Shown one piece after another: positions 1,048-12,595 of a stretch of 20,048 nt of DNA. Where the stretch lies: positions 1 through 20,048 of IMG/VR virus record IMGVR_UViG_3300025617_000144. The stretch is one strand, 5' to 3'. The DNA is from a virus. The stretch's first letter is position 1. Each line of letters opens with the position of its first letter. The notes under the pieces are model-generated. The model ran no database searches. It saw only the letters and a program-made list of their open reading frames with translations, and was not told the DNA's origin. The translations under genes and the position numbers were made by a program.

Positions 1048-1527
1048 TCAAGCACCAAAGTACTCGTTAGCACGCTCTAGGGTCCACATCTCTTCACCCC
1101 GGACACCAACACCAAGCAGGCAATAGCGCTCGCCATCGTGGTACACACCGACAACACGGTCCGAAGCAGGAACCGACTCAGGCTCAACACCAACAAACCA
1201 CGAGTCAGGCGAGTACCCGAACGCAGCACAGAACCGAACAGACGACCCAACACGAGCCGACAGACGGGAGAACACGAGGTCCACCGAGACCGAACGACCC
1301 AGCGCACGAGACGCAAAGGAAGGACGACAGACACGGACACGCCCGTCAGAGCAGACCACGGAGACCGAGTCCACACCAGACACCGAAACCGCCACAACCG
1401 ACACGGGAGCAGACCACCGAGCACGAGGCACAGAAGCCAGCAACGAAGGCCGAGGCGCAGCAGGAGCGGCGAGAGGAGAGGAAGAACCGAGGACGGGCAA
1501 AGAGGAAACAAAAGAAGCAAAGGACAC
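1048..1527 (-). CDS. Adenine-depleted paralog of the 104-430 protein, unknown function
   Basis: The GTG at 1527 is proposed as the start because the only A on this strand between 1371 and 1655 lies in a GGAG (1534-1537) six bases before it. That gives about 159 residues. An open frame continues up to a TTG at 1704, but this means little because A-free DNA cannot contain stop codons. Residues about 29-107 align with the 104-430 protein: CSDGR, a VD pair, RVGSS and F[IV]GV are shared, with Ile replaced by Val, Lys by Arg, and Thr by Ser or Val. The N-terminal about 28 residues are Ser/Ala/Pro-rich and look like a composition artefact. The C-terminal part (VYHDGERYCLLGV to the end) has normal base use. 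The product has no recognised family. The frame is well supported by the paralog, but the start is not certain. Confidence 0.65.
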   Translation of the reverse strand: MSFASFVSSLPVLGSSSPLAAPAAPRPSLLASVPRARWSAPVSVVAVSVSGVDSVSVVCSDGRVRVCRPSFASRALGRSVSVDLVFSRLSARVGSSVRFCAAFGYSPDSWFVGVEPESVPASDRVVGVYHDGERYCLLGVGVRGEEMWTLERANEYFGA

Positions 1528-1655
1528 AACGAACTCCAGAAGCCACAGGGAAGAAGAAGCGCGGGACCGCAGGGCAAGACGGCAACGCACAGGAAGGCAA
1601 CCCACCAGAACGGGGGGACACCGAAACAGGAAGGGGCGAACCCAAACCAACACCC
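1161..1655 (-). other. Adenine-depleted block 1 (minus strand; thymine-depleted plus strand)
   Basis: Counted directly, positions 1201-1655 contain only six T on the plus strand in 455 nt (1205, 1214, 1280, 1346, 1370, 1535). The stretch 1371-1655 contains one. The remaining three bases are in near-equal thirds: in 1381-1500 the plus strand has 41 A, 36 C, 43 G and 0 T. All six reading frames are open across the block, because every stop codon contains both T and A. The part above 1527 is probably untranslated leader, so the depletion is not purely a coding effect. Confidence 0.85.
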
Positions 1656-1856: not shown

Positions 1857-3488
1857 ATGAATAATAAAGAGAAGCTAGAAGCGCTGAGAGAACTCAAGAG
1901 AAGAGAAAAGCTAGCTGAATATAAAGATGACTTTGAGTTATTTGCTAAAGAACAAGTGAAGATATTACCTAAAGATTCTTCGCAGGGCTTTCAGCCATTT
2001 ATGTTTAATAGTGCTCAGAGTATTGTTAATGAACAGATTGAGAAACAGTTGAAAGAAACTGGTAGAGTTAGAGCGATTATATTGAAGGCACGGCAGATGG
2101 GTTTAAGTACCTATGCTACTGGTAGAGTCTTCTGGAAGAGTTATTTTAATGCCTATAACAAGTCAGTTGTTATGGCTCATGATACAGCTACCTCGGATGC
2201 TTTGTTTAGCATGTCGAGGAATACTATCGATAATATGCCTGAGCAGTTTAAACCTAAGTTCAAAAAGTCTAATGCTAAGGAGATCATGTTTGAACACAAC
2301 GATTCAGGTTACAGATTATATACAGCAGGCTCGCCGGAGGCAGGCCGAGGAACTACACCGACTATTGCGCATCTTTCTGAGGTGGCTTTCTGGACTCACG
2401 ATGAGAAAATTCTCGCGGGTATGTTCCAAGGTATTTCACAAGCTAAAGGTACAGAAGTAATTCTAGAGAGTACTGCTAATGGAGTAGGGAATGCCTTTCA
2501 TAGATTATGGCAGGGTGCCGTTAAAGGAGAGAATGAGTATATTCCTATTTTTGTTCCTTGGTTTCTTATGGAAGAATACCGTAGAGAAGCCCCAGAGGAC
2601 TTTGAAAGAACCGATAAAGAAGAGATATTAGTTACTAGGTTTAAGTTAGATGATGATCAACTTTACTGGAGGAGACTAAAGATAGCTGAAGGTGGTGAGG
2701 ATAAGTTCCGTCAGGAGTATCCTGCTACAGCTGATGAAGCATTTATTGTTTCAGGGGCTAACGTATTTAATATTGAGAAGTTAGCTGCTCTAGTACCTCA
2801 ACCTATATTAGCTTCTAAGGAGTTTAACTTCGAGTCTAATATGATGGAGGATAAGGATAGAGGATCAATAGAGATCTTTAAGTATCCTATGTTTGGAGAC
2901 TCCTTTACTATTGGTGCTGATGTATCTTTAGGAGTAGGTAAAGATTCTTCTGCTGCAGTTGTTATGAATGCAGATAGAGAAGTATGTGCTGTATACAGAA
3001 ACAATATGATAGATCCCTCTAAGTTTGGTGATCTTTTGTTTTACTTAGGTAGGTACTATAATAATGCTCTTTTAGCTGTAGAGTCTAACTCTATGGGTAT
3101 TGCTACATTAAATAGGCTTACACAGATGCAGTACGTTAATATGTACTACCAGACTAAGTTAGCTAATGTATCTAAAGAGGAAGGTAATAGGATTGGATGG
3201 AGGACTACCTCAGCATCTAAACCTGCTATTATTGGATTCTTAAAGAATGCTATTGATAATGAAGATATCTGGATTCCTTCTAGACTAGTTATTGGGGAGC
3301 TAATGAATTATGTGGCAGATGACTCAGGAAAAACTAATGCTATCGTTGGTCATAATGACGATACTGTTATTGCTCTAGCTATTGCCCTTGAAGTTATTAG
3401 AACACATGGCGATAGATTAAAGAATAACAACGTTCCCTTCACACAGAAGATGGGTAACTTTCAACAAATAGAGACCAACTGGTTATAA
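1857..3488 (+). CDS. terL: Terminase large subunit (packaging ATPase-nuclease)
   Basis: This 543-residue protein is the DNA-packaging motor that docks on the portal, pumps DNA into the prohead and cuts it. The N-terminal ATPase shows a variant Walker A (ARQMGLST, residues 78-85), a Walker B-like strand with SEVAFW (174-179, catalytic Glu about 175) and the coupling motif ESTANG (204-209). The C-terminal RNase H-like nuclease shows TIGADVSLGVGKDSS (Asp355), AVESNS (Glu409) and GHNDDTVIA (Asp501/502), the expected three acidic clusters. Length is normal for the family. The ATG at 1857 has AGGA about 8 nt upstream. No small terminase subunit is recognisable in the window. Confidence 0.97.
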   Translation: MNNKEKLEALRELKRREKLAEYKDDFELFAKEQVKILPKDSSQGFQPFMFNSAQSIVNEQIEKQLKETGRVRAIILKARQMGLSTYATGRVFWKSYFNAYNKSVVMAHDTATSDALFSMSRNTIDNMPEQFKPKFKKSNAKEIMFEHNDSGYRLYTAGSPEAGRGTTPTIAHLSEVAFWTHDEKILAGMFQGISQAKGTEVILESTANGVGNAFHRLWQGAVKGENEYIPIFVPWFLMEEYRREAPEDFERTDKEEILVTRFKLDDDQLYWRRLKIAEGGEDKFRQEYPATADEAFIVSGANVFNIEKLAALVPQPILASKEFNFESNMMEDKDRGSIEIFKYPMFGDSFTIGADVSLGVGKDSSAAVVMNADREVCAVYRNNMIDPSKFGDLLFYLGRYYNNALLAVESNSMGIATLNRLTQMQYVNMYYQTKLANVSKEEGNRIGWRTTSASKPAIIGFLKNAIDNEDIWIPSRLVIGELMNYVADDSGKTNAIVGHNDDTVIALAIALEVIRTHGDRLKNNNVPFTQKMGNFQQIETNWL

Positions 3489-11182: not shown

Positions 11183-12595
11183 ATGGCTTATAATCAACGG
11201 CCTGGAGTAACAGGTACTATTGCTGGTGGAGGTCAATACGACGATTTAGATACAGTAAACTCTTTACAATATGATAATGTTGCAGCTACTAAAGCTGCGG
11301 AGGCTGCTGCCAGTGCTGCTGCTGCCAGTGTTAGTGAATCTAATGCCGCAAGTTCTGCAAGTAGCGCTGAAACATCTGCAAATAACGCTGCAACCTCAGA
11401 GACTAATGCTGCGACTTCTGAGTCTAATGCAGCCACTTCTGAATCTGCTGCAGCTGTTTCCGAGGCAAATGCACTCCTTTACTCAAATAACGCATCTACG
11501 TCAGCAACAAATTCTGCAACATCTGCCTCTGAAGCTGCTACTAGTGAAACTAATGCGGCTAACAGTGCTTCTGTTGCTGCTACTTCTGCCGCTAACTCTG
11601 CTAGTAGTGCATCAGCATCCGCTACATCAGCGGCTAACTCTGAAGCATCAGCTACGGCAAGTGCTAACAGTGCCTCTGCCTCCGCAACATCTGCTAGTCA
11701 AGCCTCTATTTCTGAATCTAATGCTTTAGCAAGTGCTACGGCTGCTGCTCTCTCAGAATCTAATGCGGCTACCTCAGAAACTAATGCTGCAACTTCCGAA
11801 ACAAATGCTGCCACTAGCGAAACAAATGCTGCAGCAAGCGCTGCAACGGCAACTAATCAAGCGTCTAATGCTGCAACAAGCGCATCAAACGCTTCTGCTA
11901 GCGAGTTAGCTGCTCAAACTGCACAGGCTGCTGCAGAGGCTGCTCAGGTTGCTGCTGAAACAATCTATGATGCCTTTGATGATAGATACTTAGGTAGTAG
12001 GGCGGTAGCCCCAACATTAGATAATGATGGAAACCCTTTAGCAGACGGTGCTATTTACTTTAACACTACTTACAATACACTTTGGGTGTATGACTTAGGT
12101 AATACTACTTGGTTAGAGATTCCTCAGTTAACTATTGCATCACTAACTGATGTAACACTCTCTTCAGTCACTACTGGTGAATTGTTGGTATGGACAGGTA
12201 CTGAGTGGATTAATAAAACACTAGAAGAAGCAGGTATTGTTGTTGATGGTGATATAGGCGTTACTGTACAGCCTTATAATTCAAATACAGTTATTGATAG
12301 TGCTTATGTACACACAGATAGCAATTATACACTAGCAGAAAAGAATCTAGTAGCCTCTGCTATACAGCCAGGGGATAATGTATCTACCTTAACTAATGAT
12401 GTAGGGTATTTAACAAGTTATACAGAGACAGATCCTGTTTATACAGCATCATCTTGGTATACTACTACAAATAATTCTATTAATTGGGATAGTGCTTATA
12501 CCACAACACAAGGTTTAGGCACAGCGTCAACTAATAATACAGAAGATTTTGATCCAGCAGGTACTGCTGTAGCTTTGTCTATTGCTTTAGGATAA
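11183..12595 (+). CDS. Tail fibre with Ala/Ser heptad repeats
   Basis: In this 470-residue protein, residues about 35-260 are an Ala/Ser/Asn/Thr repeat built from seven-residue units such as SETNAAT and SESNAAT. This is the phage tail-fibre repeat type (as in lambda Stf) that forms a trimeric coiled rod. After it comes YDAFDDRYLGSRAVAPTLDN (about 262-281) with AIYFNTTYNTLWVYD, a junction module common in phage fibres, and then a beta-rich end with TDVTLSSVTTGELLVWTGTEW and repeats containing TDPVYTASSW. The ribosome site AAGGAGG is strong. Repeats make the gene prone to length variation. The end binds either the host or another fibre subunit. Confidence 0.85.
   Translation: MAYNQRPGVTGTIAGGGQYDDLDTVNSLQYDNVAATKAAEAAASAAAASVSESNAASSASSAETSANNAATSETNAATSESNAATSESAAAVSEANALLYSNNASTSATNSATSASEAATSETNAANSASVAATSAANSASSASASATSAANSEASATASANSASASATSASQASISESNALASATAAALSESNAATSETNAATSETNAATSETNAAASAATATNQASNAATSASNASASELAAQTAQAAAEAAQVAAETIYDAFDDRYLGSRAVAPTLDNDGNPLADGAIYFNTTYNTLWVYDLGNTTWLEIPQLTIASLTDVTLSSVTTGELLVWTGTEWINKTLEEAGIVVDGDIGVTVQPYNSNTVIDSAYVHTDSNYTLAEKNLVASAIQPGDNVSTLTNDVGYLTSYTETDPVYTASSWYTTTNNSINWDSAYTTTQGLGTASTNNTEDFDPAGTAVALSIALG

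Follow-up and report, generated by a model that had tools for sequence, protein, structure and literature searches.

Near-absence of adenine from one strand beside the terminase gene in a marine and freshwater family of CRP-7-like podoviruses

During infection by phage T7, the entry of restriction sites is delayed until Ocr has been made. There are also phages with uracil-containing DNA that encode an early inhibitor of Ung (PMC3794593, PMC10303552). The locus that we describe here lies in a window comprising the whole of a 20,048-base virus fragment record, whose closest DNA record among named phages is Roseobacter phage CRP-7. Terminase identity (Table 1), a DNA match in the portal gene, and divergent early and late clusters place the window among the CRP-7-like podoviruses. 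Over almost 500 nt beside its terminase gene, one strand is nearly devoid of adenine. The first-pass annotation of this DNA had offered no described phage mechanism that fits, and we can add little to that verdict: our literature search found no paper on adenine-free phage transcripts, none of the known families accounts for the block, and the diversity-generating retroelement fails for want of a reverse transcriptase. To our knowledge, there is no description of a strand that has lost a single base almost completely, over hundreds of nucleotides both coding and noncoding, while the protein was kept.

The depletion is extreme by any count. Scoring minus-strand A as plus-strand T, we recovered the figures given earlier of six A in 455 nt (positions 1201-1655; binomial P 2e-50) and one A in 285 nt (1371-1655; P 2e-36), and the block as a whole (Table 1) has a P of 9e-53, the expectation in each case being the window's own composition. 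The longest T-free runs on the plus strand reach 164 nt (1371-1534) and 120 nt (1536-1655); no other base is absent from more than 39 nt in a row anywhere in the window. A pattern of 158 non-A bases finds matches in the block and in none of 100 dinucleotide shuffles. The remaining bases, C, G, and T, each make up about one third of the block, as had been claimed. Its right edge at 1655 is sharp. On the left, the depletion fades gradually, with a second A-poor zone at about 815-1050 and, inside the fading side, a patch of nearly normal A content at about 1048-1185. Because depletion is strongest in the noncoding leader and extends to all three codon positions, neither chance nor ordinary codon bias can account for the pattern, in agreement with the first-pass annotation. 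Nor is the block an assembly artefact, a concern that had been raised at that stage, since it recurs in 65/65 relatives with at least 600 nt upstream of terminase, drawn from many metagenomes, and in the sequenced cultured isolate CRP-7.

The block sits between two gene sets of opposite orientation (Table 1). To its right, the plus strand carries terminase, portal, capsid, and tail genes, among them a putative tail protein (11183-12595, plus strand) with a long low-complexity stretch rich in Ala, Ser, Thr, and Asn; to its left, small genes lie on the minus strand. The motif at the sharp edge is kept there in relatives and is related to TTTGTGTGTGAAAAAGAATCA, of which most genomes scanned have one strong copy. 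This single strong copy led us to reject the idea that the edge motif is a repeated phage promoter; the candidate promoter that does occur in multiple copies is a different motif, TTAGTCGGTWCCTAATAGRRAAW, which is found just before the terminase gene in the orientation opposite to the block. In most genomes TTAGTCGGTWCCTAATAGRRAAW is present several times, on both strands (copies in G001, G002, G004, and G009, with up to seven matches in G002), and the same motif search found no copy in G010 or G011. The candidate promoter TTAGTCGGTTCCTAATAGGAAAT would drive the terminase and late genes, that is, away from the block. A single-subunit RNA polymerase, the gene for which is not on the window itself, stands at 32% between relative G004 and CRP-7. 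A scan with the sigma-70 consensus found no site at the block, and an Rfam search gave no match. Judged by eye, the GGGTTCGCCC hairpin and the C-run of the leader are conserved in relatives. Hairpins of the form GAGAGCG...GCTCT recur between the early genes (about 460-480, 765-780, and 995-1015) and are possible processing sites. Five relatives (L037, L075, L077, L081, and L083) have G-rich, iteron-like repeats such as GGGGAAAGTCT, spaced about 12-15 nt apart, just before the edge motif. The contig ends scatter, so a fixed genome end at the edge was rejected.

Table 1. Positions of the adenine-poor block and neighboring features in the 20,048-base window
Feature	Positions	Strand	Remarks
Adenine-poor block	1161-1655	minus	8 A in 495 nt
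Edge motif TCTCTGTGTGTCAAAGAATCA	1656-1676	minus	A loss starts directly after the motif, in the minus direction
Leader, 128 nt, one A (1535, in Shine-Dalgarno GGAG)	1528-1655	minus	Has GGGTTCGCCC hairpin and CCCCCC run
Gene 1, 159 aa, GTG start, CSDGR/WFVG small-protein family	1048-1527	minus	Homologous to paralogue at 104-430
Gene 1 C-terminal extension, 20 A in 138 nt	1048-1185	minus	Missing in L017, L005, and L008
Gene 2, 53-aa hydrophobic protein, A-poor	818-979	minus	A by codon position 0.11/0.04/0.00
Gene 3, 76 aa, A much nearer normal	508-738	minus	A by codon position 0.17/0.39/0.14
Gene 1 paralogue, normal composition (28% A)	104-430	minus	About 1.3 kb from edge
TTAGTCGGTTCCTAATAGGAAAT, candidate phage single-subunit RNA polymerase promoter	1781-1803	plus	Multicopy motif in relatives
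Terminase large subunit	1857-3488	plus	phrog_2, E 1e-29; 58.6% identical to CRP-7

The block is a property of the lineage. With terminase as the anchor we retrieved 80 relatives, and we scored a block where an 80-nt stretch with no more than 3 A occurred on the same strand within about 900 nt, at loci with at least 600 nt upstream of terminase. All 65 non-duplicate loci carried a block so defined; in a control stretch at 1500-2400 nt, the criterion picked out 0 of 46. Composition profiles along 13 long records (the window, CRP-7, and 11 relatives), a survey that the first-pass annotation had recommended, place the deep, long depletions in the block only: a few weak 150-nt minima lie elsewhere, none forming a second block of comparable depth or length, and in two of the records (G002 and G012) the profile threshold picks up nothing poor in A or T at the block. 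The phages with the block form a marine and freshwater family. In CRP-7 itself, every 100 nt between record positions 57400 and 57899 contain 0-2 A. Within its clade, L130, L141, L159, L162, and L166 show the block where the early and late genes meet; L134 and L171 are without it. The accessible text of the CRP-7 isolation paper (PMC6918029) gives no description of the block. Inside it (MK613349, 57609-57995, plus strand; our L084) is an unannotated 128-aa open reading frame with an ATG start and a TAA stop. The GenBank coding sequence at this place, CRP7_gp72, runs along the other strand, where the absence of T is all that keeps the frame open. At the corresponding junction of a distant relative, the contig end L177 (1-80) carries an A-free tandem repeat of 22-25 nt, GTTGGTTTTGCTGTTGTGTTTT.

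The depletion is also polar. The A-poor strand is always that of the genes running away from terminase, and the proximal edge is sharp. Across 48 non-redundant relatives, mean A drops from 65% over the final 10 nt of the motif to 6.1%, 0.8%, 4.7%, 5.3%, and 7.8% in successive 50-nt bins, climbing to 31% at about 1050 nt from the edge; the minimum of 0.8%, at 50-100 nt, falls in the noncoding leader. Fitted block lengths range from 115 to 980 nt and take in the leader and one or two small genes. The 3' untranslated hairpins are A-poor as well, and the next gene starts with normal A in most relatives (it is partly depleted in L005 and L042), which would be expected were the unit affected an RNA. 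What A survives is found mainly in the Shine-Dalgarno site (GGAG) and in conserved Asp codons; codons 1-113 of gene 1 in the window contain A in only four GAC (Asp) codons and one TAC (Tyr) codon. In the early-strand leader of L017, an A-poor segment of about 80 nt is tandemly repeated, adding more than 200 nt.

Despite the loss of A, the genes of the block are functional, with their encoded proteins maintained. Among related A-free copies, dN/dS of gene 1 is mostly 0.1-0.4, and its AlphaFold2 model contains a small confident domain (pLDDT > 90 over most of the last 90 residues). Compared with known structures, the model gave weak matches of OB-fold type, none with an E-value below 0.001; searches with the gene-1 family returned weak and inconsistent matches in Pfam and, for a sequence profile search of the PDB, no match. 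The position of gene 1 would fit a first-expressed, Ocr-like anti-defence protein. By eye, its C-terminal extension resembles the first gene of L022 (VVPVWYDGSTYYRL...). Judging from homologous genes, A content follows position, not gene identity. Members of the gene-1 family have 2-8% A near the edge versus 24-33% further along, and in the CRP-7 clade, where one family holds the first position, A is about 1% in CRP-7, L141, L159, and L162, intermediate in L166, and normal in L130. A 52-aa hydrophobic orthologue, equally distant from the edge in both phages, contains 0% A in L030 and, depending on codon position, 2-12% in L032; when the leader and this gene are aligned, A is kept at 15-24% of sites and C, G, and T at about 70-80%. 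No single protected product is evident, because the first genes differ between phages. For distant pairs, dS of the block gene is lower than that of terminase, and the gene has been exchanged among lineages. Such genes show that a functional protein can be written with hardly any A, with no need of an ATG start and with no Lys, Asn, Ile, or Met, as a natural lipogram.

Substitution spectra between close relatives, which had been proposed as a check, show that new A almost never appears. In parsimony counts with the conserved terminase gene as the control, the rate of new A is 0.35 (from C), 0.23 (from G), and 0.13 (from T) times that of the control; substitutions that interconvert C, G, and T exceed the control by a factor of 1.4 to 6, with C-T exchanges, G to T, and T to G each as fast as or faster than it. 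Loss of A is not above the control rate, the A that can be counted being mostly constrained. Differences involving A account for 2-3% of those in the block versus 57-60% when early genes further downstream in these phages are compared, and the figure is still only 6% at 3-8% divergence. The first-pass annotation had suggested replacement of A by any base. Other bases do replace it, but A to G is the commonest change where orthologues can be compared, at half or more of replacements (about 55-60%), a share that resembles ordinary mutation in terminase. The depletion is independent of context (0.10-0.30 in all nine non-A contexts), and the block does not behave as a hypermutated region: there is no context preference, and dS is not consistently higher for the block gene than for terminase. 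Under a selection model, we estimate that scaled coefficients of about 3-5 per A yield the level of A as well as the scarcity of new A. These comparisons favor selection against A in early RNA, or against T in its template, over an A-directed mutator, because new A is rare, context has no effect, mutation at the other bases is not accelerated, and the search for a reverse transcriptase was negative.

At the level of sequence, then, we can establish the position, polarity, and strand of the depletion, its conservation across the lineage, coding function, and the near-absence of new A. In this CRP-7-like podovirus, the block most likely represents the first early transcription unit, and we infer that host RNA polymerase transcribes it first after entry. 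We give an even chance to the proposition that the early gene cluster begins with the block and that selection keeps A out of its RNA-like strand (and T out of the template). The weakest part of our account is why A should be costly, and here we infer a hazard. Until the first small protein or proteins had been made, every A in the transcript, or every T in the template, would be a liability. The hazard would be universal to these infections and could act at RNA adenines, as an A-directed endonuclease, an A-directed modification, or a shortage of ATP; alternatively, it could act at template thymines, where a modified or excised T would stop RNA polymerase. A unit written in three letters could be made and survive, and later genes would be free to use A. 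We propose tentatively, at somewhat less than an even chance, that selection bars adenosine from the first early RNA so that this RNA can be made or can survive under such a hazard, which its product then lifts. Avoidance of an A- or T-directed hazard was the best supported of the causes listed in the first-pass annotation, and the A-poor 3' untranslated part appears to fit a target in RNA slightly better than a template-thymine hazard. Counting against the proposal are the lack of a sigma-70 consensus match at the block, the normal-A gene 1 of L130, the intermediate L166, and the absence of the block from L134 and L171; in addition, we identified no gene or host factor that would supply the hazard.

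Similar substitution counts would be produced by a very fast A-specific mutator or by gene conversion biased against A. A mutator acting at the edge, whether like a reverse transcriptase, linked to R-loops or primers, or a repair polymerase, would convert A on the exposed strand to any other base, with the strongest effect close to the start, and leave essential A in place. The loss is indeed polar, strand-specific, and free of context, essential A is retained, and block length varies between phages. However, this candidate of the first-pass annotation is disfavored by the lack of RVT_1 in 16 related records, the same lack of context, the ordinary spectrum, the rarity of new A, and the persistence of normal-A DNA within the zone (L130, L166, and 1048-1185 of the window), and no mutator gene was recognized among the early proteins scanned. 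Since hardly any new A is seen even at 3-8% divergence, a mutator would have to be very fast, changing A, by our estimate, hundreds of times faster than other sites. We consider it unlikely. Biased conversion or repair at a recombination or replication hotspot, removing the mismatched A on one strand, would mimic selection in the substitution counts and would accord with the exchange of the block gene among lineages (dS below terminase dS in distant pairs), but it requires a strand-asymmetric heteroduplex and has no candidate enzyme, and we judge it very improbable.

Two further alternatives place the cost in the DNA. If uracil or a modified base stood at T, the template T could be attacked by host glycosylases or could stall host RNA polymerase, with the first gene encoding an inhibitor. 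Strand and single-base specificity would be accounted for, as only template T matters, and the uracil-DNA phages with their early Ung inhibitor provide a precedent. One relative has a dCMP deaminase, a MazG-like protein (below the Pfam cut-off), and a deoxyribosyltransferase, and no dUTPase was found in 12 records. Yet the ThyA and ThyX families were likewise absent from these 12 records, no thymidylate-synthase-like base-modifying enzyme or known Ung inhibitor was found, and low A extends across the 3' untranslated region. As far as we know, moreover, Ung inhibitors are acidic and hence have A-rich coding sequences, and this reading strikes us as rather unlikely. Avoidance of restriction at the leading end supposes that the first-entering DNA, having no A on one strand, has no sites methylated at A on both strands. 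Such DNA would be free of all type I sites and of all palindromes with A:T, and the first-gene position and the length of the block (115-980 nt) resemble the first-entering segment of T7. It leaves the constant choice of the A-losing strand unexplained, the depletion is not focused in particular contexts, and genome ends could not be located among the scattered contig ends; it is, in our view, quite improbable.

Several other readings were rejected. An unstructured three-letter RNA, suggested earlier, is not borne out, as the RNA of the block folds slightly better than shuffles (z = -1.76). Avoidance of T7-like primase sites (GTC in the template) predicts the opposite of what is found, the retained A being largely in GAC, that is, template GTC. 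Avoidance of UV dipyrimidines and sigma -10-like pausing would each be context-dependent, and CAC, TAT, and GAG contexts are equally depleted; codon or tRNA effects do not fit a region whose most depleted part is the untranslated leader. For a diversity-generating retroelement, the RVT_1 search that was negative in the 16 related records was positive in 3 of 14 control genomes, the best local DNA alignment between the paralogue region and the block spans only about 49 nt, and no template repeat was seen near the block. The feature points to some constraint on a particular nucleotide when infection begins, be it an antiviral mechanism directed at adenine or a peculiarity of the DNA or transcription of these phages. 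The question is directly testable, because a cultured host-phage pair exists, namely, CRP-7 with RCA strain FZCC0042.

Known systems each share part of this pattern. Diversity-generating retroelements also replace adenine specifically, without regard to context, by other bases within coding sequence, but the block has neither a reverse transcriptase nor a nearby template repeat matching at non-A bases, covers a leader and whole genes, has nearly exhausted its A, and changes between relatives in ways that rarely involve A. Somatic hypermutation and other gradients anchored at transcription starts have a comparable sharp start, decay over hundreds of nucleotides, and strand asymmetry; the block, in contrast, has no context motif and no raised divergence at other bases. 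In the uracil-DNA phages PBS1 and AR9, a hazard at thymine positions is neutralized by an early protein, whereas no ugi-like gene was found in the phages with the block. The early region of T7, with Ocr first and restriction sites delayed, offers an analogy, in which the first genes precede the hazard and the first segment is insensitive to it, although T7 avoids specific motifs and not one base on one strand, and gene 1 showed no anti-restriction homology. The CRP-7 group belongs to the same lineage (terminase 58.6% identical) and has the same kind of A-free block.
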